Below the pieces are notes generated by a model that saw only the letters and a list, made by a program, of their open reading frames with translations, had not been told where the DNA came from and did not search any database. Both the position numbers and the translations under genes were made by a program. From a virus: a stretch of DNA of 34,532 nt. Below are positions 5,445-30,770 of the stretch, one piece after another. The DNA is taken from positions 1 through 34,532 of IMG/VR virus record IMGVR_UViG_3300031576_000207. One strand, given 5' to 3'. Numbering within the stretch: the first letter of the stretch is position 1; the number at the start of each line of letters is the position of its first letter.

Positions 5445-6138
5445 GCAAAAACAAAACTTAGCGGAGATCGCCCGTAAGAAACGGCACCTGCATTTAATTG
5501 AAAAAATGCATAGCGGTAAGGCGTTGACCAAGCCGGAGATTACTGAGCTTGCCCAATTTGAGGCCGAGCCGTTATCCCCGACGGTTGTCAAGACGATGGA
5601 AGAAGTGGCCCGGGTGATGGGAGTCTCTTACCGCACCGTTCAGCGATGGAGGCAGGATGGTATGCCAACGACACAAGATGGTTTTTATGATCTGGATAAA
5701 GTCAAAGACTGGCATGCGGCGCGTAACGAGAAAGATGAACTTCAAGAAAGCAAAGAATACTGGGAGGAGCGGATTTTTAGTTACAAAGCTTCTTTGCTTG
5801 AGATGGATGTCAAGAAAGCCACCGGTGAGTTGGTGTCGAGAGAAGTTGTTGAGAAAGGCCGTATCTCAAGGATTATCGCGGTTAAAAGGGCGTTTCTCGC
5901 TTTGCCAAGAGTGTTGGCCCCGAGGCTTGCCATGAAGGAACCGAGGGAAATTGAGACTGAGTTGTATGAAGCCATTAGTGAAATTATTGATGAATTTTCC
6001 GGAGTGAATGATGATATTGAAAATGGACAAGGAAATTTGGAGCCCGAAGGAACGCCAGGCGTGGATGAGGCCGCGGCCGATAACAGTCAGCGAATGGGCG
6101 GATCAGTTCCGGATGCTCAATCCGGTGACATCGGCTGA
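5437..6138 (+). CDS. Terminase small subunit (Nu1-like)
   Basis: The frame is open from 5380, but the ATG at 5437 gives an ordinary 8-nt overlap with the methylase and has GGA just upstream, so I take 5437 (233 aa). A winged-helix/HTH of the Nu1 type lies at about 50-100 (VARVMGVSYRTVQRWRQDGM, then YDLDKVKDWHA), which would bind the packaging site. It is followed by a charged helical region (about 100-200) that probably contacts the large subunit. Lambda Nu1 is 181 aa, so this one is longer. The last 131 nt overlap the large-subunit gene in another frame; that tail is acidic and Gly-rich (GQGNLEPEGTPGVDEAAADN), as expected for overprinted sequence. Confidence 0.85.
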   Translation: MAEQKQNLAEIARKKRHLHLIEKMHSGKALTKPEITELAQFEAEPLSPTVVKTMEEVARVMGVSYRTVQRWRQDGMPTTQDGFYDLDKVKDWHAARNEKDELQESKEYWEERIFSYKASLLEMDVKKATGELVSREVVEKGRISRIIAVKRAFLALPRVLAPRLAMKEPREIETELYEAISEIIDEFSGVNDDIENGQGNLEPEGTPGVDEAAADNSQRMGGSVPDAQSGDIG

Positions 6139-7903
6139 ACCCGGCCGCTGGAAAACCAGCCGCACGCCGTATCTCAAGGGCATCATGGATGCTTTTACCG
6201 ATCCGCTTGTAGAAGAAATCACAATCATGGCGGCATCGCAGGTCGGCAAAACCGAGAGCATGTATAACATGCTCGGGTTTATCATCGATCAGGATCCTGG
6301 CCCTACTTTAATGGTCTTGCCAAGAGAGAACGATGCAAAGAGCATTTCCTACAACCGTGTTTTGCCGATGATTGAAGGATCGAAAGCATTGATGGTTCAC
6401 ATGACACCAATAGCTGATGATATTACGAGACTCGAATATCATCTGGATCGGATGATTCTCTATTTTGCCGGATCAAACAGTCCGGCGGATTTAGCGGGTC
6501 GGCCGATTCGTTATTTATTTCTTGATGAGGTGGATAAATACCCGAGGTTCTCGGGGCGAGAAGCTGATCCGATTAAGCTGGCCAGTGAACGCCAAAAAAC
6601 ATTTTGGAATAAAAAGACGGTGAAGGTTTCAACACCGACGACAAGAGATGGATATATCCACCGCGAATACGAAAAATCGGATCGACGTAAGTTTTATGTT
6701 CCCTGTCCGCAGTGCGGCAAATATCAGATTTTGGTATTCGGTCAGATTAAATGGCCAAAGGAAGAAAGATCGGCAGAGAAAATCAGAAATGAACGATTGG
6801 CCTGGTATGAATGTTTTTTCTGTCAGGGAAGAATCGAAGATTATCAAAAAGGGAAAATACTTTTACAAGGTCAATGGGTGCCGGACGGTTGTGAAATTGC
6901 GGATGACGGATCGATCAGAGGGGCCATAGTCAAGAGCAAACATCACGGGTTCTGGATCAATTCGTTGTATTCGCCATGGTTGACGTGGAGTGATGTCGCG
7001 GCAGAATTCTTAAAATCGAAAGATTACGTTGAGCTTTTAATGAACTTTGTCAATTCCTGGCTGGCCGAGGTGTGGGAGGAGAGAGTTGAAGAAACCAGTA
7101 TCGATAAAATCAGGGCTCTTGCTGGTGAGCATGAAGAGGGAATGGTGCCGGAGGAGGCGATTCTCTTGACGGCTGGCGTGGATGTTCAGAAAGATCACTT
7201 TTACGCGACGATCCGGGCCTGGGGATACCAGCAAAGGTCATGGAACATTTTGGCCGTTCGCTTGGAAGAATGGGAGGATGTCATCCGGGTTCTGTTTAAA
7301 ACGACGTATCCGTCAGAAGATGCCAATATTGAACCGTTCCCGGTACGATTGACCTGCATCGATACCGGTTATCGAACGTCCGAAGTTTACGAGATCTGTA
7401 GTGCCTGGCGGGATGTTGCCCGGCCAATCAAGGGGCGCAACCAGTTGGGAGGAATCCCCTATCGAATCAGTACAATCGAACGTTTCCCGGATTCCGGGGT
7501 CACAATTCCCGGCGGGCTGGCCTTGTGGTCTTTAGATACCAGTTATTTTAAGGATAAGGTGAGGAGGCTCATGCAAAATACTTCCTTGGATGGCCCGGGA
7601 GGTTGGTTTATTCATCGCAATCCTCCGGAAGAATATGTTAAGCAGCTTTGTTCGGAACATAAGGCCATTATCCGGGATAAAAAAACACGTCGAGCCCGGG
7701 AAGAATGGCGGCCGGTTAGCGCACATGCCGCGACACACTTTTGGGATTGTGAGATTTACAGTGCCGCAGCTGCCGAAATGTTACGGGTGTTTTATCTACA
7801 AGAAAATTCCGGACAGGTTATTCATCGGTCAGAGCAACACAAGAATTTCAGTTATAAAAACTGGATACCGCGAAAGCCTAATTGGAATAGACGTCATGGT
7901 TAA
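6008..7903 (+). CDS. Terminase large subunit (gpA-like packaging ATPase/nuclease)
   Basis: 631 aa, close to lambda gpA (641). The ATPase domain has a Walker-A-type AASQVGKTE (K81) and Walker B YLFLDEVD (D173-E174). A CPQCGK...CFFCQG four-cysteine zinc ribbon (about 235-280) is typical of this family. The C-terminal nuclease begins at TAGVDVQKDHFYA, whose Asp residues would bind metal. It cuts concatemers and pumps DNA into the prohead through the portal. The ATG at 6008 has GGAG 4 nt upstream and lies 131 nt inside the small-subunit gene; a second ATG follows at once. The 3' end overlaps the zinc-ribbon gene by 8 nt. Family assignment is firm. Confidence 0.96.
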   Translation: MMILKMDKEIWSPKERQAWMRPRPITVSEWADQFRMLNPVTSAEPGRWKTSRTPYLKGIMDAFTDPLVEEITIMAASQVGKTESMYNMLGFIIDQDPGPTLMVLPRENDAKSISYNRVLPMIEGSKALMVHMTPIADDITRLEYHLDRMILYFAGSNSPADLAGRPIRYLFLDEVDKYPRFSGREADPIKLASERQKTFWNKKTVKVSTPTTRDGYIHREYEKSDRRKFYVPCPQCGKYQILVFGQIKWPKEERSAEKIRNERLAWYECFFCQGRIEDYQKGKILLQGQWVPDGCEIADDGSIRGAIVKSKHHGFWINSLYSPWLTWSDVAAEFLKSKDYVELLMNFVNSWLAEVWEERVEETSIDKIRALAGEHEEGMVPEEAILLTAGVDVQKDHFYATIRAWGYQQRSWNILAVRLEEWEDVIRVLFKTTYPSEDANIEPFPVRLTCIDTGYRTSEVYEICSAWRDVARPIKGRNQLGGIPYRISTIERFPDSGVTIPGGLALWSLDTSYFKDKVRRLMQNTSLDGPGGWFIHRNPPEEYVKQLCSEHKAIIRDKKTRRAREEWRPVSAHAATHFWDCEIYSAAAAEMLRVFYLQENSGQVIHRSEQHKNFSYKNWIPRKPNWNRRHG

Positions 7904-8153
7904 ATGGATCAAGGCCAAAGGATGGTTAAGAGGATATCAATCCAGAAATCGAAACAATGTGGAGGCAAGTAAAGTTATTAAAGAATCCGAAGAGATAAGA
8001 AATGGAAATGGGGATATTGTCACGTTCACGCGTCCCAGGTGTCGAAAATGCGGGAACAAAGATAATCTGAAATGTTATGGTGCGTATGGAACGATTCGTT
8101 ATTATCGCTGTCAATGTGGGCATGAGTTTAAGGCGATGGAGGAAGAATCATAA
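7896..8153 (+). CDS. Small zinc-ribbon protein (85 aa)
   Basis: The open frame extends back to 7590 inside the terminase gene, but that part is a shadow. The ATG at 7896 gives an 8-nt overlap with the terminase stop. The N-terminus is basic (MVKWIKAKGWLRGYQSRNR). The C-terminal half holds CRKC (49-52), C60 and CQC (72-74) followed by GHEF, a treble-clef or zinc-ribbon arrangement. Such small proteins in late operons can be transcription or translation regulators (Mu Com, P2 Ogr) or assembly factors; the sequence does not decide. It is the last gene before the strong terminator at 8257-8305. Confidence 0.7.
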   Translation: MVKWIKAKGWLRGYQSRNRNNVEASKVIKESEEIRNGNGDIVTFTRPRCRKCGNKDNLKCYGAYGTIRYYRCQCGHEFKAMEEES

Positions 8154-8160
8154 AAATCAA

Positions 8161-8177
8161 TTTCAGCCAGGCTGAAA
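8161..8177. promoter_or_regulatory. Perfect interrupted palindrome, possible operator
   Basis: TTTCAGCC-A-GGCTGAAA is a perfect 8-bp inverted repeat around one central base, 7 bp after the zinc-ribbon stop. The single-base centre is too tight for an RNA hairpin loop without opening inner pairs, which favours a DNA site for a dimeric regulator. A TTGACG hexamer (8185-8190) follows immediately, though no good -10 is seen at 17 bp, so the promoter is uncertain. Confidence 0.4.
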
Positions 8178-8228
8178 CAGATTATTGACGAAGTAAATTA
8201 AGGTGATAGTTTTAAATCAAAGAAACAT

Positions 8229-8246
8229 TTAGAGGGACGCCTCTAA
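8229..8246 (+). other. Short perfect hairpin
   Basis: TTAGAGG (8229-8235), a four-base GACG loop, and CCTCTAA (8240-8246) form a 7-bp stem. It lies 10 nt before the compound terminator, so the two structures together could form an attenuator, mRNA 3'-end element or small RNA. Confidence 0.45.
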
Positions 8247-8256
8247 GTGTGAAAAG

Positions 8257-8305
8257 AAGCGGCATTCGGGTGCCCGAACACCTGTTTGCCGCTTTTTTAT
8301 TTTTT
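8257..8305 (+). terminator. Strong Rho-independent terminator with inner hairpin
   Basis: The outer stem AAGCGGCA (8257-8264) pairs perfectly with TGCCGCTT (8287-8294). Inside is a second hairpin, TTCGGG (8265-8270) with CCCGAA (8273-8278), and a long T tract follows (8293-8305). It ends the replication/packaging transcript and separates it from the signal-peptide gene at 8318. The long open frame through it (from 8249) is therefore not translated from its far end. Confidence 0.85.
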
Positions 8306-8317
8306 AAAGGAGATCAC

Positions 8318-8863
8318 TTGAGGAAATTATTTTTAATCATCTTTTTATTCCTTTTCACCGTAATTCCATCCTTAGTCCAAGCGGCCACAGGAACCATTCT
8401 CCTTCCCGTCCAGGCGGCGAAATTACCCGCCTCTAATCCCGCTCGTATCGATGGCGGACAGAATCGATGGTATTTGTTATTCGACGCCGCTACTTCCCAA
8501 AGCGGGCAATGGCAGTTTCGATTGCCCGCAAATTATTCTTCAGGACTCACCGCGAAAATCCAATATGCCATGGCCTCGGCGACTAGCGGCAATGTGATTT
8601 TTAGAGTCTCTGTGATGGCGGTGAGCGACGGTGATGCGGCGGATGTGGAAACCGATAGTTTTGCCACGGCCAATACGAGTGCCACCACAACCGTCCCCGG
8701 GACCGCCGGGTATATGGATGAGATCAGTGTATCGTTAACGAATGATGATGGAGCCGCGGCTGGAGATTTAATCATTATCAAATTGGATCGTGATGCGGCG
8801 ACTGATTCAGCCACCGGCGATGCCGAAGTGTTTAATGTTGTTCTTGAGTTTACATCCATTTAA
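8318..8863 (+). CDS. Exported beta-rich phage protein with Sec signal peptide
   Basis: I choose TTG 8318 because AAAGGAGAT lies 5-6 nt upstream and translation from there begins with a textbook signal peptide: RK, a hydrophobic run LFLIIFLFLFTVIP, then a VQA cleavage site. An earlier GTG (8249) would run through a terminator. The mature part (about 160 aa) is Thr/Ala/Asp-rich beta sequence (FRLPANYSSGLTAKIQYAM, then DGDAADVETD). This domain is familiar from virion or tail-associated proteins of environmental phages, but I know no assigned function. A signal peptide on such a domain is unusual. It opens a cassette of four genes between terminase and head genes. Export is inferred. Confidence 0.8.
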   Translation: MRKLFLIIFLFLFTVIPSLVQAATGTILLPVQAAKLPASNPARIDGGQNRWYLLFDAATSQSGQWQFRLPANYSSGLTAKIQYAMASATSGNVIFRVSVMAVSDGDAADVETDSFATANTSATTTVPGTAGYMDEISVSLTNDDGAAAGDLIIIKLDRDAATDSATGDAEVFNVVLEFTSI

Positions 8864-8878
8864 AAACAGGAGGGCTCC

Positions 8879-9127
8879 ATGGCCTATAAAGTAAAAATTA
8901 CCGCCATCACTCAAAATTTAGAAAAGATAACGATCAATTATCAGATTTTGGGACATGCCGATCAAATCATCGCTGACGCTCAGACGTTGAGTTTAAACGG
9001 AAGCGAAAAGTTTTCATTAACGGAAGTGAAGGGCAATCTGTTGGAGAAGGCGAGGAGAATGCAGAATGCGGAAAGTGTTGTGGTGTCTATGCAGACTTTT
9101 GTCGGTCAGTCTATTACTGTGGACTAA
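8879..9127 (+). CDS. Small hypothetical beta-rich protein (82 aa)
   Basis: Starts at ATG 8879 with AGGAGGG about 5 nt upstream. The 82-aa product (MAYKVKITAITQNLEKITIN...) alternates polar and hydrophobic residues like a small beta sandwich with one central helix (NLLEKARRMQNAE). There is no signal peptide, which sets it apart from its neighbours. Its last 62 nt overlap the start of the next gene in another frame, and that overlap encodes the neighbour's signal peptide. Probably a virion or assembly protein; function unknown. Confidence 0.75.
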   Translation: MAYKVKITAITQNLEKITINYQILGHADQIIADAQTLSLNGSEKFSLTEVKGNLLEKARRMQNAESVVVSMQTFVGQSITVD

Positions 9128-9932
9128 TGTCTGCTTTGCCGGAATAGATTTCGATGGGGTGGATGACTTTGTCAATGTCAGTTCAGTCTGGAATGCCACG
9201 CAAGATTATTCGATTTTTATTGTCGCCAGGAAAGAAGAGGCCAACCGAACCCAAGGAGTTTACGCCAACACGCAGAGTTGGGGTGATTTTGGAATTGCCT
9301 GCACCTCGGGAAATATTCTCAGACACTCCACGTTTGGGTATGCCGACCATGATTCGAATATCACCTGGAATATCAATAAGTGGGTCGCCATCGTCATTAC
9401 GGGGGATAAAGGCAATAGTTCGAGTGGTCTGACCTTTTATTATCGTGAATTAGATTCCAGTACGATCACCACGTATAACCGAAGCTGGGATGATCGTGGG
9501 GATACAAAAACTGTTGCTGGTTATATCGGCCGAAATCAATTCGGTGAATATTTCAATGGTCAGATCGCGGAAGTGTGCATTTGGGGCAATCGTCTTTTGA
9601 TGGACGCCCAGGCCAGACAATTACTTTCTTCGTACTCGAAGGGATTTGCCCGGCAGATGTATCCGGCGGATATCAAAGAATATTGGTTATTGGATGATCA
9701 GCCAGATGGCACCAGCGGCGACGGCGATACGTTTAAAGATATTAGCGGCAATGGCAAAAATGGGACAGGGGATAACGGAGGCAACAACACGGGATTAGCG
9801 ATGGCCGCTGAGCAGGTATTAAGTTATCCGGATTTTGTTCAGTTTGTGAATTACAACACCGTCGTTGCGGCCGCAGATGTTTATTCCGGTCGGGGAGTTG
9901 GCCGCGGTGTGGGCAGAGGAATCATGCGATGA
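9066..9932 (+). CDS. Exported LamG/concanavalin-like lectin-fold protein
   Basis: 288 aa. The ATG at 9066 has GAGGAG about 9 nt upstream. The N-terminus is a clear signal peptide: RK, hydrophobic run with WCLCRLLSVSLLLW, cleavage near VCFA-GI. The mature protein begins with GIDFDGVDDFVNV, the characteristic first strand of LamG/laminin-G3 domains (about 26-200), which bind glycans in phage fibres and bacterial adhesins; FNGQIAEVCIWGNRLL is the expected later strand. The C-terminus ends in Gly-Arg repeats (GRGVGRGVGRG). The start lies inside the upstream gene, and the stop overlaps the next ATG by 4 nt, so the genes are coupled. Ligand unknown. Confidence 0.85.
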   Translation: MRKVLWCLCRLLSVSLLLWTNVCFAGIDFDGVDDFVNVSSVWNATQDYSIFIVARKEEANRTQGVYANTQSWGDFGIACTSGNILRHSTFGYADHDSNITWNINKWVAIVITGDKGNSSSGLTFYYRELDSSTITTYNRSWDDRGDTKTVAGYIGRNQFGEYFNGQIAEVCIWGNRLLMDAQARQLLSSYSKGFARQMYPADIKEYWLLDDQPDGTSGDGDTFKDISGNGKNGTGDNGGNNTGLAMAAEQVLSYPDFVQFVNYNTVVAAADVYSGRGVGRGVGRGIMR

Positions 9933-11485
9933 TCAAAAGAGTTTTATTGATGGCTTTATTATTTTTGATGGGATGTAGTGAAGTCTCGTATGCCCTCGAG
10001 ATTATCCGCCAGAAAAACACCGCGACAAAGATTGTCTTCCCGATGATTGATGCCGATGGAGATACGGTAACAGGCGCGACTGGTCTCGACAGCGAGGAAA
10101 GCCATTGGGATAATTCTACGAATCCCAGTTCATTTGCCGATCTAACCAATGAAGCCACGGAGATCGGTACAACTGGGATTTATTATTTAAGTTTGACTTC
10201 CGGCGAAATGAATCAGGATTACGTGGCCATTCAGGTCAAGACCACGAGTAGTGGAGGAAAAACTCAACACATTTTGCTTCGAACTGTAGTCGGTGATCCC
10301 AGGAACATGGCGACTGTCACAACCGGCGGAAATTCAATCGATGTCACCTCAACGGGTGAAGTGGGACTGGATTTAAGTAATGTCAACGGGACACTCGATG
10401 CGAGTGAAATCGGCACAGACGCCATCACCTCAGCAAAGATAGGAGCCGATGCCATCGGTTCTTCTGAAATCGCCGCGGATGCGATTGGTGCGTCGGAAAT
10501 TGCCGCTTCAGCAATTACCTCAAGTGAGTTTGCCCAGAGCGCGGCTGATTTGGTGTGGTCCTCCACAACAAGATCATTAACGGACAAAGATGGGTTTCGA
10601 TTATCCGCGACGGGTGTGGATGATATCTGGGATGAATCCCAAGGCGGACATGTGACGGCCGGGACTTTTGGAAAATATCTGGATGAATCAATTTCTGGCC
10701 TCGATGACAATCCCTGGGATAACGCCACAAGAACGATCACCGGAGGAACCATTGATACCAACAACGATAAGAGTGGGTACCGTTTAAGCGCGACGGGTGT
10801 CGATGATATCTGGGATGAATCCCAAAGCGGTCACACCACGACCGGTACGTTCGGCAAATATCTCGATGAGGCGATCTCGGGAATTGATGATAACCCCTGG
10901 GATAACGGGACCAGGACATTAACTTCCAACGCGAATTTTAACGATCCGACAGCGGCGACAATCGCGGATGCGGTGTGGGATGAGTTAAGAGCGGATCACA
11001 CCATCTCCGGAAGTTTTGGTCAGGGAGTGGCCTCGGTCCAGGGGAATGTTACCGGCTCCGTCAATTCGGTAACAAGTGCCGTGACCGTAGGTACGAACAA
11101 TGACAAAACCGGATATCGATTAAGCGCGACTGGCGTGGATGATATTTGGGATGAAGTTCAAAGCGGGCATGTGACAGCGGGCACGTTTGGTAAATATCTC
11201 GATATTCAGGTTTCGAGCATAAGTGGGGGAAGTTGTCCGACGGTCGGTCAAATAGCCGATCAGGTCTGGGATGAAGCAATAGCGGATCACTTAACCTCGG
11301 GGACAACCGGCAATAAATTAAACGCGGCCGGTAACGCTGGAGATCCGTGGAATACATCATTGCCGGGTTCGTATGCCAGTGGAACTGCCGGAAAAATTCT
11401 ATCGAATATCAACGATTCGACCGATGGCGATAAAGAGGGTTCGAGTTATACCGGCATCGAGAACACGATCCGTCAGAACAGGTGA
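9929..11485 (+). CDS. Repeat-rich fibre-like protein with lipoprotein-type signal
   Basis: 518 aa. ATG overlaps the upstream stop (ATGA), with GAGGA 8 nt upstream. The N-terminus reads IKRVLLMALLFLMGC, a lipobox-like LMGC with C16 as the candidate lipidation site; a signal peptidase I site (SYA-LE at 22-24) is the alternative. A BppU-like beta domain (about 25-115) is followed by short DAI-S-x-I-A repeats (about 150-200), then three copies of a module with LSATGVDDIWDE, GTFGKYLD and DNPWDN, plus related VWDE units. These repeats are typical of phage tail-fibre or neck-fibre shafts. The combination with a lipoprotein signal is odd: it could be a surface-displayed adhesin or a fibre routed through the membrane. 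Confidence 0.83.
   Translation: MIKRVLLMALLFLMGCSEVSYALEIIRQKNTATKIVFPMIDADGDTVTGATGLDSEESHWDNSTNPSSFADLTNEATEIGTTGIYYLSLTSGEMNQDYVAIQVKTTSSGGKTQHILLRTVVGDPRNMATVTTGGNSIDVTSTGEVGLDLSNVNGTLDASEIGTDAITSAKIGADAIGSSEIAADAIGASEIAASAITSSEFAQSAADLVWSSTTRSLTDKDGFRLSATGVDDIWDESQGGHVTAGTFGKYLDESISGLDDNPWDNATRTITGGTIDTNNDKSGYRLSATGVDDIWDESQSGHTTTGTFGKYLDEAISGIDDNPWDNGTRTLTSNANFNDPTAATIADAVWDELRADHTISGSFGQGVASVQGNVTGSVNSVTSAVTVGTNNDKTGYRLSATGVDDIWDEVQSGHVTAGTFGKYLDIQVSSISGGSCPTVGQIADQVWDEAIADHLTSGTTGNKLNAAGNAGDPWNTSLPGSYASGTAGKILSNINDSTDGDKEGSSYTGIENTIRQNR
10596..11215 (+). repeat. Tandem coding repeats in the fibre-like gene
   Basis: Three copies of about 100 bp, starting near 10590, 10773 and 11111, share blocks encoding GFRLSATGVDDIWDE or GYRLSATGVDDIWDE and GTFGKYLD. 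Copies one and two are nearly identical at the DNA level around GATGATATCTGGGATGAATC; copy three differs at synonymous sites. This suggests recent duplication of the first pair. Confidence 0.8.
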
Positions 11486-11488
11486 GGT

Positions 11489-11998
11489 ATGGATTATATC
11501 CAAATCAATCAAGCATTCACGGCGACCATCGATTTACCGGATTCGATTAGCACAGATACTGTCAAGTACAAGATTTACAAGGCTGGTGACGGTTCGATCT
11601 TTGCCCAGGGCAATGCAACTTATATTGCAGGTATTCATTGGAAAGTGACGTTTACACCCAATATTCAGGATGTGTTCATCGTTGAAGTATGGAATGAGAC
11701 CCGGGCCATTGATGTTATTTATTCTCGAGAATTTCAAGCGGTCAGTAGTACGACATTATCACAGCCAATAGAGGATGATTCTTCCACCCCGACCGCCAGT
11801 GAATTGCTGGTGTTGATTGATAAGGCGATTAGAACAAGGTTAGCGGGTGGAGCCGTGCAATCGTATGCAATCGCAGGAAGAAATTTGCAGTACATGACTT
11901 TAACCGAATTAAGGCAGTTGAAAAATGAGTTGCAACAACAAATCGCCGCGGAGGGCGGCGGTGCCAGGAATTATGTTTCATTTACTAAACCACGTTAA
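11489..11998 (+). CDS. gpW-like head completion protein with N-terminal beta domain
   Basis: 169 aa. ATG 11489 follows GGTGAGGT and lies 3 nt after the previous stop. Residues 1-85 look like a beta sandwich (FTATIDLPDSISTDTVKYKI), similar to domains in phage baseplate or fibre proteins. From about 100 the sequence changes to a helical module (ELLVLIDKAIRTRLAGGAVQSYAIAGRNLQ...LTELRQLKNELQQQIA) ending RNYVSFTKPR, which resembles gpW and related head-tail joining proteins. gpW plugs the portal after packaging and, in lambda, sits directly before the portal gene, as here. The fusion to a beta domain is unusual, since gpW alone is 68 aa. Confidence 0.7.
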   Translation: MDYIQINQAFTATIDLPDSISTDTVKYKIYKAGDGSIFAQGNATYIAGIHWKVTFTPNIQDVFIVEVWNETRAIDVIYSREFQAVSSTTLSQPIEDDSSTPTASELLVLIDKAIRTRLAGGAVQSYAIAGRNLQYMTLTELRQLKNELQQQIAAEGGGARNYVSFTKPR

Positions 11999-12000
11999 CC

Positions 12001-13608
12001 ATGACAAAAAATAAAAATAGACCGGGGTTGATTGAGCGATTCAGTTCCGGATTAGATCGTCTTATCGGCGTTTTTTCTCCAGAAGCGGAATTGAAGAGGC
12101 GAATGTTTCGCTTTGCCAATAACTATGCCTTAAAGGGTAGTTATGCTGGTGCCAGCCGCGACCGATTGCGCTCTTCGTGGATTCCCTATGGCGGATCGGC
12201 CGATGAAGATTTATTGCCGGACTTAAATGATTTACGTGAACGCAGTCGTGACCTGGCCAGAAACGACGGCGTGGCCAGTGGAATTATCTCGAGCATGGTA
12301 TCGAATGTTGTTGGGCATGGTATCGTTCCACAGTGCCAGCTTGATAAAGAAAAAATAAATTTGTCCGACGATCAGGCTGAAAAATTCCAAAAAGATATTG
12401 AAAGCGCCTGGGAATTGTGGGGCCCGTTTGCCGATACGGCCGGACGGATGAGTTTCTGGGAGATTCAGCAGTTGGTGCAGTCGCAGGTTCTCATCAACGG
12501 CGAGGCGATTATTATTCGTGAGATGGTGGATGAATCCTGGCGGCCGTATTCGTTGGCGTTTAATGTCATCGAGTCTGATCGGATGGATACCCCGTCGGAT
12601 AAAAGGTCGGATAGAAGCATTCGTCGCGGTGTTGAGATTGGTTCACGCGGAGAACCGCTGGCGTATTGGATTTGTAAGACTCATCCCGGCGATGTCACAT
12701 ATACGAAACGTCATCCTGAGGCAAAAGAATACGTGCGATTTCCTGTGCGCAATCCGTACGGGCAATTAAACGTTTTGCATTTGTATTGGGTCAAGCGGCC
12801 TGGCCAGACCAGAGGAGAACCTTTTTTCTCACCGGTACTTTTGCGGTTTCGCGACTTGGCAGATTACATGGAAGCGGAACTCGTGTCGGCGCGTGTGGCC
12901 GCGTGTTTTTCTGTATTTATCAAAAAAACCAACGCCTACACTGCGGCGTTAAAAATGGCGAAGGACACTCAAAATGAAAAACGTATTGAAGAACTTGAGC
13001 CGGGCTTCATTGATTACTTAGGTCCAGATGAAGATATCTCGGTGGTCAATCCCAACCGACCTGGCGCCCAGTTCGATCCGTTTGTGGACAAGGTGATTCG
13101 TTTTATCGGAGCGGGTTTGAATTTGCCGTATGAGTTAGTGATGAAAGATTTTTCGAAATCCAATTATTCCAGTGCCCGGGCCGCCATTCTTGAGGCGAGA
13201 AAATATTTTAAATCCATGCAGGTGTGGACCGCCCAGAAATTGTGTCAACCGATCTGGGAACTGTTTTCCGAAGAGGCTTTTTTACGAGGATATATTGAGG
13301 CACCCGACTTTTATCAATCCAGGTCATATTACTGCCGGGCGAAATGGATAGCTCCGGGGTGGGGATATATCGACCCAGAGAAAGAAATCAATGCCTCGAT
13401 TGCTTCGATTCGAAACAATCTCTCAACGCACGCCGATGAAATCGCGGCGCATGGAAAAGACTGGGAAGATGTCTTCGAGCAGTTAGGTCGTGAAAAGAAA
13501 AAGCGAGAAGAATTGGGATTGCCGGATGGCGAGGGTGGCCGGATCACTTTGACGGCGACGAAGGAAAATAAGAAGAAGTCAGGAGATGAGAATGTCCAAG
13601 AAGATTAA
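12001..13608 (+). CDS. Portal protein (lambda gpB-like)
   Basis: 535 aa, nearly the length of lambda gpB (533). The N-terminus contains YAGASRDRLRSSW and DLNDLRERSRDLARNDGVASG, followed by the FNVIESDRM, YSSARAAILEARK and related stretches of the lambda portal family. It forms the dodecameric ring at one capsid vertex through which TerL pumps DNA, and nucleates prohead assembly. The ATG lies 2 nt after the previous stop with no clear ribosome binding site, suggesting coupled translation. The Lys-rich C-terminus overlaps the protease gene by 17 nt. Family assignment is firm. Confidence 0.95.
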   Translation: MTKNKNRPGLIERFSSGLDRLIGVFSPEAELKRRMFRFANNYALKGSYAGASRDRLRSSWIPYGGSADEDLLPDLNDLRERSRDLARNDGVASGIISSMVSNVVGHGIVPQCQLDKEKINLSDDQAEKFQKDIESAWELWGPFADTAGRMSFWEIQQLVQSQVLINGEAIIIREMVDESWRPYSLAFNVIESDRMDTPSDKRSDRSIRRGVEIGSRGEPLAYWICKTHPGDVTYTKRHPEAKEYVRFPVRNPYGQLNVLHLYWVKRPGQTRGEPFFSPVLLRFRDLADYMEAELVSARVAACFSVFIKKTNAYTAALKMAKDTQNEKRIEELEPGFIDYLGPDEDISVVNPNRPGAQFDPFVDKVIRFIGAGLNLPYELVMKDFSKSNYSSARAAILEARKYFKSMQVWTAQKLCQPIWELFSEEAFLRGYIEAPDFYQSRSYYCRAKWIAPGWGYIDPEKEINASIASIRNNLSTHADEIAAHGKDWEDVFEQLGREKKKREELGLPDGEGGRITLTATKENKKKSGDENVQED

Positions 13609-17115: not shown

Positions 17116-17754
17116 ATGCGGTTCATCATCAAAGTCGAAAGTGATGAGTTACAGCGGCGCTTAGAGAAGGCGCCCATACGGGTTAAGAAAGTCCTGGCTG
17201 ATGGGCTTGATCACGCGACGAGAAGTTTCATGAAGACTTTTTTTAAAGAGCGCCTGCAGGGACCGCCCGGTATCAAACACAACCCCCGAGGAATATTTCA
17301 TCGTTTCAGAAGGGCCGTGATCGTCAAAGGCAAAGCGGTATTCTTAACACAAACTGCTTCATCGGATTCGACTATCAAATCCATTGCCAATTCCGCTAAA
17401 GACCCCATGAATATGACCGTTGAGATTTATTCTAAATCACGCGTGGCGGGAATCCATGAACGCGGCGGGTCAATTAACACAGGCAAGCCCATGCCGATAC
17501 CGTTATCAGAAGCGGCCAAAAGTTTATTGAGAAACAGAATCAGTCTTCAAGAACTTTCCCCCATCCATATTAACGGCAAACTTTTCTTAGCTAGGACGAA
17601 GGGAAGAGAAAAGCCGGAGTTACTCTTTATCTTAAAGCGCGGGATTAGAATCCGTCCGCGTTTGGGATTTTATCAGACGTGGGCAGAGCATCAAACGAGG
17701 CGCGGTGAGATTATGGACAAGGCGATGGACAAAGCCTTCAATAAACTTATTTGA
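17116..17754 (+). CDS. Minor tail/tail completion protein (gpZ-like)
   Basis: 212 aa (lambda gpZ 192). ATG 17116 with AGAGG 5 nt upstream is preferred to the GTG two codons earlier. The protein is basic with an amphipathic N-terminus (FIIKVESDELQRRLEKAP, then VKKVLADGLDHATRSFMKTFFKERL), like HK97 gp10/gpZ-type proteins that finish the tail end before joining the head. The central IHERGGSINTG fits the AGIHE-G-G motif common in such proteins. Located between FII-like and U-like genes, as in lambda. Confidence 0.75.
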   Translation: MRFIIKVESDELQRRLEKAPIRVKKVLADGLDHATRSFMKTFFKERLQGPPGIKHNPRGIFHRFRRAVIVKGKAVFLTQTASSDSTIKSIANSAKDPMNMTVEIYSKSRVAGIHERGGSINTGKPMPIPLSEAAKSLLRNRISLQELSPIHINGKLFLARTKGREKPELLFILKRGIRIRPRLGFYQTWAEHQTRRGEIMDKAMDKAFNKLI

Positions 17755-17757
17755 TAA

Positions 17758-18225
17758 ATGGCCGATACGATCAGAGAAAAAATTGTTAAGAATTTAAAAA
17801 CTACGCTCGAGGGAATCACGACGGCCAATGGTTACAACAATGAGGTGGGGAGTGTTCAGCGCTGGGACAAGCGTGGCAACGAAACAGCACAACAGAATAT
17901 TACGATCGTTATTTACCCGGGACCGGAAACAAAACTTCCTCAGCCCAATCCACTGTTCAGCTGTCGGTTGCCGTTAATGCTTGAGGTCTGGGTTATCCAG
18001 GATGAGGACGATACTTTATCGACGGACGAACGGTTGAACAGTATTTTGGGGGATATTGAAAAGGCGCTGATGGTTGATATAAAACGCGGGGGAAACGCTG
18101 AAGATACGGATATCAACGGAAACGAACAGTTTTTGACAATCGAGGGCCAGCCCAACGCCGGCCTGACGGTTGATATTGAGGTTAAATACCGTCACAAACA
18201 AACTGACCCGGAACAGATCGGGTGA
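17758..18225 (+). CDS. Tail terminator protein (gpU-like)
   Basis: 155 aa (lambda gpU 131). The ATG follows the previous stop after 3 nt with no evident ribosome binding site. Features are an N-terminal helix (IREKIVKNLKTTLEGI), a beta core (ITIVIYPGPET, LPLMLEVWVIQDED), a helix LNSILGDIEKALMVD, and a final strand (LTVDIEVKYRHK). This layout is that of the gpU/minor capsid fold that caps the tail tube and stops its growth. Assignment rests on secondary-structure pattern and position between Z- and V-like genes. Confidence 0.7.
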   Translation: MADTIREKIVKNLKTTLEGITTANGYNNEVGSVQRWDKRGNETAQQNITIVIYPGPETKLPQPNPLFSCRLPLMLEVWVIQDEDDTLSTDERLNSILGDIEKALMVDIKRGGNAEDTDINGNEQFLTIEGQPNAGLTVDIEVKYRHKQTDPEQIG

Positions 18226-22552: not shown

Positions 22553-22983
22553 CACCAAAAGATATTATTAACAAATATTTGGGCGTCCCATTTAAGCACA
22601 TGGGCCGTGATCCAAGAACCGGACTGGACTGCTGGGGTTTGATCAAATGTATTTACACGGATGCTGGGATTGACCTCTTTGATTTGGAATCGTATGAAAT
22701 CCATTTTGCGTTATTGGGCAAAAATTATTTCATTGAGAATTACTCGAGGCAATGGGCAAGAGTCGAATCCCCACAGTTTATGGACGTTGTTTTGTTCCGG
22801 ACCAAGGGGAATGTCGTTAATCATGCCGGTTTGGTTTTAAACGAATCGCGGTTTATTCACACCGGACCTTCGAAACTTGGCGTGATCGTTTCACGTTTAG
22901 GTGAGTTGAGTATTTTTCAACGAACAGCGGGATTTTATCGATACAAACATGATCAAAATAAAATATTATCCGATACGGTTTGA
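22549..22983 (+). CDS. Tail tip NlpC/P60 peptidase (gpK-like)
   Basis: 144 aa, GTG start overlapping the previous TGA. The NlpC/P60 signature is complete: catalytic C28 in GLDCWGL, H92 in NHAGLVL, with H104 in FIHTG as the probable third polar residue. The enzyme would cleave peptide cross-links of peptidoglycan at the tail tip during DNA entry. Lambda gpK has an extra N-terminal JAMM domain that is absent here. The last 35 nt overlap the start of the J-like gene. No separate endolysin is seen in the window, so this is its only recognisable wall-cleaving enzyme, but its place in the tail cluster argues for an entry role. Confidence 0.9.
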   Translation: MTPKDIINKYLGVPFKHMGRDPRTGLDCWGLIKCIYTDAGIDLFDLESYEIHFALLGKNYFIENYSRQWARVESPQFMDVVLFRTKGNVVNHAGLVLNESRFIHTGPSKLGVIVSRLGELSIFQRTAGFYRYKHDQNKILSDTV

Positions 22984-25900
22984 CCAGTCCGGCAAGGTCG
23001 AGAAAGCATTTGAATTCTCGCGTAATTTCCAACTGCGTGATTATTTGGATTCATTCAAAGAAATTCCACAAATTAATTTTACCGAATTTGACATCATTGT
23101 TTCCGGGAAGGTCGTTAAGGACTTCAATGAATTTGTGAACGATGGTGATGAAATCATCGTAACGCCAAAGATCGGAGATCCGGGAACAATTTTCGGAGTT
23201 ATTGCGACAGTGGCCACGGCATTAGGAGCTTCGGCAACAACCGCGGCCACGATCGCGGCCATCGGCACGGTTCTGGCCGTTGGCGCAACATTAGCGGCCA
23301 TTGGCTATTCGATTTATTCGGCATTTCAAAGACCGAGTTTACCCGGGTTTGGTGGTATCTCCGGAGGTGGTGGTCTTGATGAAGGATCTCCGACGTACGG
23401 ATGGGAAGGGGGCCGGACGCTCAGTGACGTTAACGTCCCGGTTCCCATTATCTACGGCCGTCATAAAGTTTATGGTAATGTGATCAACGAGTACATTCAT
23501 TCCGATGGCGATAAGCATTTCTTAAATATGCTGGTCGCCTTGGGAGAGGGTGAGATTAATTCAATCAGCGATTTAAAACTGAATGACAATCCCATTGCCA
23601 ATTTTCAAGGGGTGAGTTTCGTTTCCCGCATGGGAACAAATAATCAGACGATCATTCCCAATTTTGAAGACCTTCACAACTTAATCGACGTTAACGTCCA
23701 ACTGCTTAAAAATAATGCGTATGTTTATACGACCATCGATAATGACGTTGAAGCATTCGAGATTAGGTTTGTTTTGCCGTCAGGATTATTTCAACAGAAT
23801 GCGGACAATGGAGAAATCGTGAGCTGGTCGGTAACGTACCGGGTTGAGTATAAATTAACGACTTCCGGCACGTGGATTGATTTAGGTTTAATGTCCATCA
23901 CCGATAAAAGGCGAGCGTCATTCTTTCGGGTATTCCGCAAAGACGGTTTAACGGCCGGTAAATACGATATCCGCGTCACAAAAACTTCCGACGACTCAAC
24001 ACTTTCTCCAGCCAGGACAGGGGATTTCTATTTGTCCCAAATCGATGAAATTAAAACGGATGATCTGATTTATCCCAACACAGCTTTGGTCGCCATCGAG
24101 GCGTTGGCTTATGAACAGCTTAACGGACGTCGGCCAAAGTTTTCATGCATTGTGGAAGGAAAGAAAATTTCTATCCCTAAGGTGATGAACGGCGGCAATG
24201 AGGTTGATTGGGAGGATTATTACTGGGACCAGGCTTCCGGTCAGTACAAATTATTTTCCGGCGGAACGGTATTAAGCTGGGACGGTTCAACGTATGTCGA
24301 TAAATTCAGCGCGAATCCGGTCTGGTGTTTTAAAAATTTAATCACGAAGACCCGTTACGGCCTGGGTGAGTTTATTTCCTCGAGCTTGCTCGACAATACT
24401 CTCATGCTCGAGCTTTCCCGGTATTGCGAGGAAAAAGTCCCGGATGGAAACGGCGGATTTGAGAAGCGATTCAGGTTGGATGTCGTCATCGATAGTTTTA
24501 CGAAATCATTGGATCTGATTCAGCAGTTGGCCGCGACGTTTAACGCGTTTCAGTATTATTCGGCTGGTACGGTTAAATTGGGGATTGATAAAGAGGAGAC
24601 ACCGGTTCAAATCTTTGGGATGGGGAATATTATCGAGAACTCATTTCGGCAGATTTGGAAGTCGGTCAAAGATATTCCCAATGAGGTGGAGGTGCAGTTT
24701 CTCGATCACGATAAAGATTATGAGCAGGAGACGATTTCGTTACGTGATGAGACCGCCTTAAACAGCGGGGACCCGGTACGAACCCATCGGATCAGACTTT
24801 ATTGCACCGGGGTTGCTCAGGTCTTAAGGGTGGCACGGTATGCTCTTAACGTTGCCAAGAATGTTACGCGCAGCTGTTTTTTCCGTGCCGGCATTGATGC
24901 GATCGCCTGTCAGGTCGGCGATTTGATCGGAGTTTCTCATGATGTCCCGCAGTGGGGTTTTAGCGGCCGGGTGAAGGCAAATTCCACAACGACGCTGGTT
25001 AAGTTGGACCGTGAAGTGATTATCGAAAATGGCAAGACGTATAAAATTCAAATCAGATTTGCCGATGATACCGTTGAGGAAAGGACAGTTTCATCGGCAC
25101 CGGGGACTTACACTCAGGTTCAGGTCTCAAGCGCGTTTTCTCAAGTCCCGGCCGATTACGATGTCTATTCCTTCGGAGAGACGAATATCGTCACCAAACC
25201 TTTCCGGATTTACGCCATGCGCCGGACAGAGCACGACGAGGTTGAGATTGAGTGTGTGGAATATATCGAAGCGGTGTACGACGATTCGGCCGTCACAATC
25301 CCGCAGACGAACTATTCCGCGTTAAGCCGCGAAATACCTGATGTTAGCAATTTAACGGCCGTTGAGAAAAACGTTAGGCTCAAAGACGGAACCATCGGAA
25401 GCATCATCGAAGTTTATTTTTCGCGACCGGATCGAACAACGTACGCCATAAACCAGTTCTCTTATGCAAAAATATATTTTTCCGATAATTTCGGGGCCTC
25501 TTGGATATTTGCCGGTAGCACATTTTCTGATTCGTTCGCAATCACAGAAGGCATTCAGGCCGGGAAAACCTACAAGGTTGCCGTAGCCAGCACTTCCGCT
25601 GATGGCGCGGAGAATGCGATCGCCGATTCCCCTCAGGTTTCGATTACGGCCTTAGGAAAACTGGCCCCGCCCAGTAACGTGACTGGGTTCGATGTTCAAC
25701 AGCGCGGCGATCGATTGCGCTTTTCCTGGAACCCTATAACCGATGGCGATCTGGCCCGGTACATCATCAAGAAAGGCGGGGATTGGCCAACGGGACAAAC
25801 CATCGCGGAAAAAGTCGACGTCACGGAATTTGAATATCCAATCGGAACCATTGGTGAGCAAACGTACATGATCAAAGCCATCGACACCTCCGGTAATGAA

Positions 25901-26659
25901 AGCGTGTCATCGGCAACGGATACTTTGACGGTCATTCCACCGCCGGAAGGAAATTTTGTCGTGCAATTGGATCCCTGGGCGCAGAACCGCGAGTATAAGC
26001 TCACCAATATTGATCGCATTCAATTGAATCTTTTTGATCCCGCTTATGCACGGGATGTTTTTGTTTTAAAAACTCAAGACACGTGGGCAGACGTAGATGG
26101 TCAGGATTGGGAAGGATTGAATCTCGGTAATAAACTGGTAGAGGCCTCCGGAGAGATTGAGCAAATTGAGCCGATCGATCTTGGCGTCATATTCGAGTTT
26201 AATCTTTTATTGGACATCCTATTTAATAATGTCGCTGGCGGATCGATAACGGTGCAGGTTTCAACCAGCGAGAACGGGACGACATTTACGGCCTTTGCGG
26301 ATATCAACCCGGAAGAAAATTATCGGGCCAGGTATGTCAAATTTAAAATCATCATTGAGACTTCCAACACGGATAATCAGGTTTTCTTTTACGCGGCGAC
26401 GATATTCATCGATTCGCCAACGGCAAAACAATTTCCGTTTCGGGACGTTGCCATTGCCATCGGCGGTTCAACAATAGTTTTTCGTGATGATTTTACACAG
26501 ATTCCGCGTGTACGCGGATTGGTTGTCACTAATGGCATCTTAGGAATTCCACAGATTACGGCTTTGAGCATAACCAGCATGACGGTCAAGGTCTGGGATC
26601 CGATTACGGCAGCTTATATCGGCACAGCCGAAGTCAGCGGGGAGGTCGTTGGGGCGTGA
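22949..26659 (+). CDS. Central tail tip/host specificity protein, I-J fusion (gpJ-like)
   Basis: 1236 aa (lambda gpJ 1132). Residues 1-76 form a ubiquitin-like beta-grasp (FQLRDYLDSFKEIP...IIVSGKVVKDFNEFVNDGDEIIV) and 82-124 a hydrophobic Ala-rich segment, the arrangement of lambda gpI, here joined to gpJ. From about 145 comes the J core (EGGRTLSDVNVPVPIIYGRHKV...LALGEGEINSISDLKLND-like), with tail-hub domains to about 790. Two FN3-like domains follow (about 795-904 and 906-1000), then a discoidin-like beta domain (about 1010-1160, with VQVSTSENGTTF and RYVKFKI). It forms the trimeric tip that binds the receptor and plugs the tube; the hydrophobic segment may insert in the membrane during injection. 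The start lies 35 nt inside the peptidase gene. Confidence 0.9.
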   Translation: MIKIKYYPIRFDQSGKVEKAFEFSRNFQLRDYLDSFKEIPQINFTEFDIIVSGKVVKDFNEFVNDGDEIIVTPKIGDPGTIFGVIATVATALGASATTAATIAAIGTVLAVGATLAAIGYSIYSAFQRPSLPGFGGISGGGGLDEGSPTYGWEGGRTLSDVNVPVPIIYGRHKVYGNVINEYIHSDGDKHFLNMLVALGEGEINSISDLKLNDNPIANFQGVSFVSRMGTNNQTIIPNFEDLHNLIDVNVQLLKNNAYVYTTIDNDVEAFEIRFVLPSGLFQQNADNGEIVSWSVTYRVEYKLTTSGTWIDLGLMSITDKRRASFFRVFRKDGLTAGKYDIRVTKTSDDSTLSPARTGDFYLSQIDEIKTDDLIYPNTALVAIEALAYEQLNGRRPKFSCIVEGKKISIPKVMNGGNEVDWEDYYWDQASGQYKLFSGGTVLSWDGSTYVDKFSANPVWCFKNLITKTRYGLGEFISSSLLDNTLMLELSRYCEEKVPDGNGGFEKRFRLDVVIDSFTKSLDLIQQLAATFNAFQYYSAGTVKLGIDKEETPVQIFGMGNIIENSFRQIWKSVKDIPNEVEVQFLDHDKDYEQETISLRDETALNSGDPVRTHRIRLYCTGVAQVLRVARYALNVAKNVTRSCFFRAGIDAIACQVGDLIGVSHDVPQWGFSGRVKANSTTTLVKLDREVIIENGKTYKIQIRFADDTVEERTVSSAPGTYTQVQVSSAFSQVPADYDVYSFGETNIVTKPFRIYAMRRTEHDEVEIECVEYIEAVYDDSAVTIPQTNYSALSREIPDVSNLTAVEKNVRLKDGTIGSIIEVYFSRPDRTTYAINQFSYAKIYFSDNFGASWIFAGSTFSDSFAITEGIQAGKTYKVAVASTSADGAENAIADSPQVSITALGKLAPPSNVTGFDVQQRGDRLRFSWNPITDGDLARYIIKKGGDWPTGQTIAEKVDVTEFEYPIGTIGEQTYMIKAIDTSGNESVSSATDTLTVIPPPEGNFVVQLDPWAQNREYKLTNIDRIQLNLFDPAYARDVFVLKTQDTWADVDGQDWEGLNLGNKLVEASGEIEQIEPIDLGVIFEFNLLLDILFNNVAGGSITVQVSTSENGTTFTAFADINPEENYRARYVKFKIIIETSNTDNQVFFYAATIFIDSPTAKQFPFRDVAIAIGGSTIVFRDDFTQIPRVRGLVVTNGILGIPQITALSITSMTVKVWDPITAAYIGTAEVSGEVVGA

Positions 26660-27063
26660 TGGGCTATTGCGTGGCATTAAAGAGAATGGTGGAAATGGCG
26701 GAGGTGGAAACAATTCAACTGCCGGATTTGTCGTTTGTTCATCGGGGTAAATTTACCGACGATAAAGGTAAGGTGCATGTGATTCATCGCAAGGTTTATC
26801 CTCAAGAAATTATTATCGATCATACCGGACATCATTTCCCGAATGAAGTTCATGTCGGACAAAAAACTCCTGAGAAGATTTTTCAGGAGCCGGTGGGCCA
26901 ACTCATTATTGTCGATGGAAAGAATATCAAGACCGTTCACGCAGACGGCAAACTCAAAACCAGGGAAGAATTGGAAGCGGAGGTTAAAAGAGATGAGAAA
27001 GTTACTAAAGTTTCTGGCAATTCTGACATTAATAAGCCAGGTCTCACTAAGCCGGGCAGATGA
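26656..27063 (+). CDS. Hypothetical protein between J and tail fibre (about 135 aa)
   Basis: GTG 26656 (or ATG 26659) overlaps the stop of the J-like gene; ATG 26686 is another possible start. The sequence contains ETIQLPDLSFVHRGKFTDDKGK, repeated His residues (HVIHRKVYPQEIIIDHTGHHFPNEVH) and a Lys-rich C-terminus. Clustered His might bind metal, as in some fibre proteins, but no family is recognised. The 3' end overlaps the tail-fibre start by 71 nt, and that stretch encodes the fibre's signal peptide in another frame. Probably a tail-tip or fibre-attachment protein by position. Confidence 0.65.
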   Translation: MMGYCVALKRMVEMAEVETIQLPDLSFVHRGKFTDDKGKVHVIHRKVYPQEIIIDHTGHHFPNEVHVGQKTPEKIFQEPVGQLIIVDGKNIKTVHADGKLKTREELEAEVKRDEKVTKVSGNSDINKPGLTKPGR

Positions 27064-28948
27064 GGTTAGATATCAATCGGACTGGAATTTCCCCAGGGAT
27101 GTCATCAGCCGGGAAGATTTCCGGTCGACGTTGCGAGGACTCAACCAAATGGATCTGGGGCCTTTGCGTGCCTCAGCCAAATTTGTTTTGGATCAAATGG
27201 AATATTCTTCCAATGCCTCGGTTCAAGCTCAGTATTCCGGAACTGGTGTGACGATAACAACCGAGTCGTCGATTAAACAGGAAGGAAGTTATTCTCTCAA
27301 GGCCGTTATCGATGGGACAAACGATCGGAATTTTTCAAGGACGTTTAGCACAAACCTTTTGGGATTTCAATCGATCACCGTTTGGACCAGATCAACGGCC
27401 ACATCTTCGGCGATTCAGTTTTTCTTAAGCGACGGCACGAATTCATCCTATTGGAATGTTACGACCGATTCTTCAGCCAATACCTGGAAACAGCACACAT
27501 TGACATTGGCCTCACCGGACGCGAATTCCGGATCCCCGGCAAATTTATCTGCGATCGCATCGTACGGGTACCGCCTTCTGGATGCGTCAGCGACGTATTA
27601 TTTCGATACGATTAAAGCCATCGTGGGGATGAAAGTGGCCGTGCGGGGGACGAATTTAGGTTCGTATTATCGGCATGTTTATTTGGGGGTGTCGCCTTTA
27701 TTGGTCGACACGCAGGCATCGCCGACAATTACAGCTCCATCGGCAAATCCTCGTTACGACATTTTATTGATTGATACTTCAGGAACATTATCCTGGGTGA
27801 CCGGGACGGAATCAGCCAGTCCGACGATTCCCTGGAGTTCAATAGCGCGTAACAAAATTCCCCTAGCGATTGTTTATTGCAAGACGACGATGACTAAAGT
27901 TTTGGATTATGAAGATAAAGATACCGACGCCAATCAGGGATATATTTTTGCAGACGTCCGTCCGTTTATAAATCTTTCGATGGGCTGGGCCAAAGGAGTG
28001 GATGTTGCCAGCGCGTCAACAACGACGCTGGGCAATGATGGGAATGTGTTTGATATTACAGGAACAACTCAGATCAATACGATCACGGCCAAACCGGCCG
28101 GGGAATGTGTTTTCCTTCAATTCGATGGAATATTGACCGTCAAAGACGGCACCGGGAATCTGAAGTTAAACGGTGATTTCCAGACGGCCGCTGAATCCAC
28201 CTTGACGCTATGTTCGGATGGGACTAATTGGAATGAATTCGCCCGCCAGCCGACGGCATCGACATTTCTGGGATTGACGGATACGCCTTCGAGTTATTCC
28301 GGGCAGGCTTTGAAATACACCAGAGTCAATTCCGGGGAGACAGCGATTGAATTTGTCGCGGATCCGTTTAATACAACCTCTGGCCACGATCATGATGGTA
28401 CGGATTCAAAAAAAGTTTTAGCCACTAATCTCGACCCGACGGGAATAACGGACGGGCATTTTGTTAAACGTAGCGGGTCAGCGTTGGCAGGAGTCGCCCT
28501 GTCTCAGCCAAAACACAGATTCTCAGTTTATTCTAATACTCAATCTGTCGATTCAGGGGGGAGCGGTCCAGTTAAAGTTAAATTCGATGTGGAAGAATTT
28601 GATGAGGGTGGAAATTTTGACCCTGCAACCAATTATCGATTTACGGCTCCGGTGACGGGTAAGTATTTGATTGGCGTGACGGTCAGGATTCAAACTGCCG
28701 GTTTCAGTTTTTATGTGGATTTGTATAAGAACGGTTCGTCATTCAAAAGGGTCGGCAATGGAACTGATGTGGATGCCAATGATTACATGACTGTCTCGGC
28801 TACTTTTATCCTGAGTTTAAATTCCGGAGATTACCTGGAGGTTTATTTCGGGAAAGATACGGGTGCGGCCGGGAGTATTGCGACCGGCACAGGACAAGCA
28901 AACTCGTCATTTTGCGGGACTCTTTTAGAAGATATTTCTGGCCTATGA
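26993..28948 (+). CDS. Tail fibre with signal peptide and C1q-like tip
   Basis: 651 aa from ATG 26993; the open frame extends back to 26843 but that part overlaps the upstream gene and looks like shadow. It begins RKLLKFLAILTLISQVSLSRA-D, a clear signal peptide. Domains: a jelly-roll region resembling a carbohydrate-binding module (about 70-205, KQEGSYSLKAVIDGT to YYFDTIKA), a beta middle, the fibre motif FLGLTDTPSSYSGQALKY (about 425-445), DGHFVKRSG, and a C1q/TNF-like jelly roll (about 505-651, RFTAPVTGKYLIGVTVRI, SGDYLEVYFGKD). C1q-like tips trimerise and bind receptors. An export signal on a tail fibre is unexpected. The stop overlaps the next ATG (ATGA). Confidence 0.85.
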   Translation: MRKLLKFLAILTLISQVSLSRADEVRYQSDWNFPRDVISREDFRSTLRGLNQMDLGPLRASAKFVLDQMEYSSNASVQAQYSGTGVTITTESSIKQEGSYSLKAVIDGTNDRNFSRTFSTNLLGFQSITVWTRSTATSSAIQFFLSDGTNSSYWNVTTDSSANTWKQHTLTLASPDANSGSPANLSAIASYGYRLLDASATYYFDTIKAIVGMKVAVRGTNLGSYYRHVYLGVSPLLVDTQASPTITAPSANPRYDILLIDTSGTLSWVTGTESASPTIPWSSIARNKIPLAIVYCKTTMTKVLDYEDKDTDANQGYIFADVRPFINLSMGWAKGVDVASASTTTLGNDGNVFDITGTTQINTITAKPAGECVFLQFDGILTVKDGTGNLKLNGDFQTAAESTLTLCSDGTNWNEFARQPTASTFLGLTDTPSSYSGQALKYTRVNSGETAIEFVADPFNTTSGHDHDGTDSKKVLATNLDPTGITDGHFVKRSGSALAGVALSQPKHRFSVYSNTQSVDSGGSGPVKVKFDVEEFDEGGNFDPATNYRFTAPVTGKYLIGVTVRIQTAGFSFYVDLYKNGSSFKRVGNGTDVDANDYMTVSATFILSLNSGDYLEVYFGKDTGAAGSIATGTGQANSSFCGTLLEDISGL

Positions 28949-30690: not shown

Positions 30691-30770
30691 TTTCCGTGGT
30701 ATAATTTACATGGATTAAAGAGTATTAATATTTCTTTAACTTTTCTATAAAAAACTAAAAGCCACGGAAA
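30691..30770 (+). promoter_or_regulatory. Extended -10 promoter with flanking inverted repeat
   Basis: TGG-TATAAT at 30697-30705 is a perfect extended -10; no good -35 is seen at 17 bp (CTAATT). Transcription would start near 30712, 58 nt before the ATG. A perfect 9-bp inverted repeat, TTTCCGTGG (30691-30699) and CCACGGAAA (30762-30770), brackets the promoter and leader; the right copy ends on the A of the start codon. This may be a pair of operator half sites. The leader between is very AT-rich. Confidence 0.65.

Follow-up and report, generated by a model that had tools for sequence, protein, structure and literature searches.

Why would the fibre genes of a tailed phage begin with signals for export from the cytoplasm? 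Fibres decide the host range of phages, and the usual assumption is that both their synthesis and their attachment take place in the cytoplasm. The question is raised by the complete IMG/VR virus record IMGVR_UViG_3300031576_000207 (34,532 nucleotides, hereafter the window), which, judged from its content, is a prophage of an uncultured bacterium of the phylum Omnitrophota. Between the gene for the large terminase subunit (terL, GpA type) and the genes for the gpW head-tail adaptor and the portal lie four open reading frames (ORFs), g1 to g4, at exactly the positions originally predicted (8318–11485; Table 1). The domains of g1, g3 and g4 appear to be those of phage fibres, a known kind, while their addressing to the Sec pathway would be new. 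The cassette is best explained as a module of receptor-binding appendages, belonging to a temperate lambda-like Omnitrophota phage whose fibres have been re-addressed to Sec.

Export signals on the fibre genes

The N-termini of g1 (MRKLFLIIFLFLFTVIPSLVQA, cleavage before A), g3 (MRKVLWCLCRLLSVSLLLWTNVCFA, cleavage before G) and g4 (MIKRVLLMALLFLMGCSEVSYA, cleavage before LE) each combine a positive n-region with a hydrophobic core and a site of the signal-peptidase I type. The same holds for a tail fibre gene one gene past J (MRKLLKFLAILTLISQVSLSRA, cleavage before DEVRY), a fourth such gene, which lies outside the cassette interval and was overlooked in the original prediction. We scored all ORFs of at least 100 amino acids (aa) in 80 terL-anchored loci with a crude, home-made signal score. 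Only 11 of the 876 ORFs score above 3.5, and ten of these are located in the slot between terL and gpW, the exception being on the minus strand of locus L063. The stronger evidence is comparative. A signal is present in 9/9 homologues of g4 (the window, L002, L015, L029, L090, L096, L097, G034/L169 and G105/L174), and their mean identity is 36% within the signals versus 73% in the next 100 residues, with the cleavage site aligned. As far as sequence can tell, the three predicted export signals of the cassette and that of the tail fibre are genuine, and those of g4 and the tail fibre are conserved although their sequences diverge.

The accompanying lipobox reading of g4 was not supported by the comparison. 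The cysteine of its LMGC motif is found in the window only, the eight other homologues have no lipobox, and the signal-peptidase I site is present in all nine. Because the cysteine is not common to the homologues as a lipobox, we rejected g4 as a bacterial lipoprotein, and the protein is best read as a substrate of signal peptidase I. A separate observation concerns the nucleotide sequence of two other signals: the signal-coding stretches of g3 (9066–9127) and the tail fibre (26993–27063) lie almost exactly over the 3' end of the gene before them, suggestive of an origin by overprinting.

Homologues of the same fibres also occur without signals. Those of g4 (L098–L106) are found in contigs from Burkholderiales, Eisenbacteria, Ardenticatenaceae, Brocadia (five contigs) and Minwuiaceae; their N-domains are 49–56% identical to the window, and the start of each protein coincides exactly with that of the domain (MAASDARPVPRKN...); the upstream sequence encodes no hydrophobic stretch and contains in-frame stops in nearly all cases. 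The tail fibre family includes four members with a signal, which precedes DEVRY or DEVMY (the window, L093, L094 and L182), and five without (L097, starting MADEIRY, and L184–L187, starting MERHI); in either group the N-terminal, virion-proximal domain shares 47–63% identity with the window. In at least two fibre families, then, fibre genes have gained or lost signals precisely where the N-terminal domain begins. Homologues consistently starting downstream of the hydrophobic segment had been named as a refutation of the original prediction; such starts are found in other host phyla, while all homologues in the Omnitrophota-phage clade keep the signal. The five Brocadia contigs (L101–L105, Brocadia sp. 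WS118) belong to one assembly, and each has a similar signal-less fibre gene pair, as if the pair had been multiplied within the genome.

The virion-proximal N-domains of g4 and the tail fibre are homologous to phage fibres, and are well conserved between forms with and without signals while the tips are swapped. Absence of signal peptides has been taken as support for the phage origin of variable binding proteins (Benler et al., PMC6199706). Because the signals are conserved here, we would assign the domains to phage fibres, and not the maturation route. We also considered g4 and the tail fibre as families of host genomes, and rejected this: among 384 Omnitrophota genomes the g4 domain occurs in two and the tail-fibre domain in one, at prophage loci only.

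Distribution of the module, its adaptor and its leader

A search of relatives for the same architecture, as the original prediction had proposed, revealed a signal-peptide cassette between terL and gpW in L002, L015, L029, L096, L097, L169, L174 and G185/L230. The modules are not confined to this slot. L090 has several signal-peptide genes beside a major head protein gene, one of them a g4 homologue, and G024/L087, with a different terminase type, has three in succession, for a tail fibre whose end is a g1-like domain, for a small protein and for a LamG-like protein. Internal parts of the L087 fibre retrieved at least eight further distinct contigs with a signal-bearing fibre-motif protein and three without; the former often have runs of 3–5 signal-peptide genes, with the phage context verified for part of them only. 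Upstream of the signal-peptide fibre is a tape-measure gene in L220 and a major head gene in L211. Similar signal-peptide fibre modules thus appear to occur in unrelated IMG/VR phages. GenBank phage records yielded no match for g1, the LamG protein of L029 or the fibres of L087 and L090. Compared with phages, mature g4 gave only repeat-level matches, to uncultured phages, and the tail fibre matched only in its C1q-like or motif regions (Caulobacter, Pelagibacter and other phages); among isolates, we found no close relative of the window phage.

The gpW protein (g5) changes together with the cassette. In 9/9 family phages with a signal-peptide cassette, namely the window and the eight relatives with the cassette between terL and gpW, gpW has an N-terminal Ig-like extension of about 95–110 aa. 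L003, whose slot holds a fibre cassette without signals, has a gpW extension of a different kind. An extension is present in 10/10 phages with a fibre cassette and in 0/72 contigs without one, where gpW is a bare core; the 72 comprise 61 contigs and 11 further Omnitrophota prophages, several of them near-copies and thus not independent events. In the terL tree L003 groups with L004 and L008, both of which lack the cassette as well as the extension. L169 branches deeply on its own, and the terL of G185, another deep lineage, is 58% identical to that of the window. Separate contrasts for the co-occurrence come from L003 versus its close kin, from L169 and from G185. From this co-occurrence we infer a docking role for the extension. 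The best PDB fold match of the predicted g5 structure is 8gtd_M, from the portal-adaptor complex of phage R4C (rank 1, E = 4.6e-6), with a low whole-chain TM of 0.34 and with the C-terminal part and domain orientation of the model uncertain. The R4C adaptor consists of a tube domain and an N-terminal Ig-like 'attachment' domain (PMC10276861). With g4 adjoining gpW and the tail fibre one gene from J, the fibres are encoded in the structural operon beside candidate docking proteins.

The cassette is preceded by a leader of about 150 nucleotides with an inverted repeat (8160–8178), promoter-like elements (TTGACG, 8185–8190; TGATAG, 8204–8209), a hairpin HP1 (~8228–8247) and a terminator hairpin HP2 (8257–8295) with a T-tract. 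Two-sided compensatory changes affect 9 of 22 pairs across 13 sequences, and a covariance model matches ahead of the cassette in all cassette phages examined; no Rfam family matched the leader. The promoter is a candidate suggested by conserved letters, which a generic promoter scan did not list. The leader is also present in L003, L004 and L008, none of which has a signal-peptide cassette and the latter two of which are cassette-less, and it precedes gpW/portal in cassette-less kin. In G034/L169 it occurs twice on the minus strand (11737–11900 and 17621–17781), before the cassette and before gpW. The terminator that had been predicted to isolate the cassette is thus real (8257–8299), but the isolation is not: because the terminator belongs to a leader shared with cassette-less relatives, we rejected it as an insulator, and the cassette is not set off as a moron with a promoter and terminator unit apart from the late operon. 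In the late control of lambda, the promoter pR' is immediately followed by the terminator tR' ahead of the structural genes. The layout of the leader resembles this arrangement; if it acts alike, the cassette would be a late lytic product, which would argue against a lysogenic-conversion moron. Within the leader, GGGACGC is found in a hairpin, and the terminator hairpin has a loop complementary to the 5' arm of the same hairpin. Hairpins of similar layout and other sequences (GGTGCACC) occupy the same place in the more distant relatives L005, L012, L024 and L063.

Possible destinations of the fibres

We tentatively prefer, at slightly less than an even chance, the reading that neck and tail fibres of the virion are sent through Sec to the periplasm and joined to the particles at lysis. 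The fibres would be made late, exported, then cleaved and folded in the periplasm; g4 would bind the gpW or neck extension and the tail fibre would bind J, once the cell is opened by lysis proteins and the particles pass through the periplasm. Export might keep sticky fibres from assembly, permit periplasmic folding, or both. Among the roles proposed originally, virion fibres routed through the periplasm are favoured over surface display because the docking side, the gpW extension and the N-terminal fibre domains, is retained, although neither role is proven. That this is a widespread route, with Sec-secreted receptor-binding fibres processed in the periplasm and mounted on capsid-tail particles at lysis, the signal peptide having been repeatedly added before docking domains, is possible, and we lean towards doubting it.

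Several points weigh against periplasmic maturation of virion fibres. Tailed phages assemble in the cytoplasm, and we know of no virion fibre that attaches after export. The signal peptides were called from sequence and a crude score. Export is not obligatory for every fibre, since L097 has a signal on g4 and none on the tail fibre. The slot also accepts envelope genes, as it holds a signal-peptide outer-membrane-like beta-barrel in L007/L009 (12331–13095 in L007) and lysis genes, holin/spanin-like, in L073. Finally, the Ig-like domain of the R4C adaptor was read by its authors as stabilising, not fibre-holding (PMC10276861).

A rather doubtful alternative that nevertheless survives best holds that the fibre modules have been co-opted as exported host-envelope proteins, in the periplasm or on the surface of lysogens or infected cells, for receptor masking, superinfection exclusion, prevention of adsorption to debris, or host adhesion. 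The signal peptides and the barrel in the slot of L007/L009 agree with it, as do the Bdellovibrio MAT proteins, signal-peptide phage-fibre-like proteins that serve as predator surface adhesins (PMC10769870), and the lambda outer-membrane protein gene lom, which sits between the tail spike and tail fibre genes (PMC12309495). Envelope proteins of this kind, however, fit poorly with the retained docking domains and gpW extension, with a leader of the structural operon common to the cassette, and with the restriction of the g4 and tail-fibre domains in Omnitrophota to prophage loci; the window proteins have no conserved lipobox, and Pfam scans of them matched no surface anchor.

An unlikely explanation is a dual fate, where inefficient or regulated export divides each fibre between virions, supplied from a cytoplasmic pool, and the periplasm, where it would block receptors. 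Optional signals within one fibre family would be accounted for, and in L093 the mature protein begins exactly at an in-frame ATG; by contrast, most other homologues lack an internal start at that point, and their cytoplasmic pool would therefore retain the signal. That the hydrophobic N-termini are accidents of wrong starts or recent chance fusions on ordinary cytoplasmic virion fibres is very improbable and already contradicted by the homologue comparison: two signal-coding stretches do overlap the end of the preceding gene in a manner resembling chance overprinting, but aligned cleavage sites with diverged signals recur in nine g4 and four tail-fibre homologues, most homologues offer no usable internal start, and such N-termini are very rare outside the slot.

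Gene layout and relation to known systems

The gene order of the window is lambda-like: terL (GpA), gpW, lambda-type portal, protease, head, tail, tape measure, NlpC/P60 and J. Its terminase family is found in 18 of 384 Omnitrophota genomes, with identities of 55–73% among the best matches listed.

Table 1. Features of the window discussed in the text
Feature	Position	Strand	Basis
terL, terminase large subunit, GpA type	6008..7903	+	Pfam GpA_ATPase, GpA_nuclease
Leader of cassette/head operon	8160..8317	+	Covariance model match 8161–8318
g1: signal peptide (22 aa) and beta-rich fibre-tip domain	8318..8863	+	TTG start, AAAGGAG
g2: small protein without signal peptide	8879..9127	+	ORF call
g3: signal peptide and LamG/ConA-like domain, C-terminal YSGRGVGRGVGRGIMR tag	9066..9932	+	Pfam Laminin_G_3 below cut-off
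g4: signal peptide (22 aa), Ig-like N-domain (~100 aa) and fibre repeats	9929..11485	+	Homologue alignment, AF2
g5: gpW head-tail adaptor with extra N-terminal Ig-like domain (~100 aa), no signal peptide	11489..11998	+	PHROG head-tail joining/adaptor
Portal protein, lambda family	12001..13608	+	Pfam Phage_portal_2
J, central tail fibre	22949..26659	+	PHROG 31, E 1e-146
Tail fibre beside J: signal peptide MRKLLKFLAILTLISQVSLSRA, tail-fibre motifs, C1q-like end	26993..28948	+	Homologues, motifs

Over its domain, g1 shares 46% identity with the C-terminal part of the signal-peptide tail fibre in L087 and 59% with a signal-less protein in L086. For g2, kinship with the signal-peptide QCxWKI proteins that occupy the corresponding position in relatives was rejected, as no relation was found (hhalign 0.6%). 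The match of g3 to Laminin_G_3 (E = 1e-5) reaches 26.0 bits against a cut-off of 27.6. Its C-terminal tag is conserved in L002, L015, L029, L096 and L097; the tip at this position is LamG-like in the window and in all of these except L015, where a different domain has the same YSGRGxGRG tail. The tag (YSGRGVGRGIMR, 9880–9932) is thus kept on differing domains among relatives, and its codons also contain the g4 ribosome-binding site AGAGGA, g3 and g4 being coupled through ATGA. The AlphaFold2 (AF2) model of g4 (pLDDT 89) is a beta-sandwich, and its N-domain matched only Ig-like folds in Foldseek, none of them decisive.

A zinc-ribbon-like small ORF after terL (~7830–8153) is kept in nearly all relatives examined, cassette or none. 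At the right end, 30770–34429 encodes a 1219-aa signal-peptide HEAT-repeat protein of a family that is multi-copy per Omnitrophota genome and present in 36/145 genomes of the phylum. This region is probably host flank, and the window would therefore include the right chromosome junction near 30.7 kb. In deep lineages the slot is opened by a recurrent signal-peptide protein, xYNQxxxDLG... (L056, 3426–4457; L169, 16154–17650, minus strand; L230, 435–1961). Runs of radical-SAM-like genes, an unusual lambda-like cargo, follow the tail fibres downstream of J in L138, L141, L150 and L151.

Among known systems, the signal-less fibre cassettes of L098–L106 share the g4 N-domain, a fibre- or LamG-like gene upstream and, in some, a small Ig-like gene downstream, but have no signal peptide, the protein starting MAASD..KN. 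The adaptor of siphophage vB_DshS-R4C (PDB 8gtd, PMC10276861) has the same two-domain plan and a full-length fold match to g5, at 15% identity, and no exported fibre cassette is described for R4C. Bdellovibrio MAT fibres (PMC10769870) also have a signal peptide, a beta-rich domain directly after it, a phage-fibre-like shaft and diverse tips. Unlike the cassette, they are encoded by and displayed on a bacterium, outside any phage structural operon, and many, in one of two MAT subgroups, end in S74, for which g3, g4 and the tail fibre gave no Pfam match. Morons of the lambda Lom type are likewise exported proteins encoded within a lambdoid late region; Lom, however, is a membrane barrel and not a fibre, whereas the window cassette has its leader and terminator in common with phages that have no cassette, and its presence goes with a change in the neck protein. 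In the open-access literature, represented mostly by titles and abstracts, we found no description of signal peptides on tailed-phage fibres.

If the exported fibres attach to virions, tailed-phage assembly includes a step beyond the cytoplasm. Otherwise, an entire class of phages uses its own fibres to decorate or block the host. In either case the question is directly testable, since pairs of homologues differ in whether they have the signal, an element of about 20 residues.

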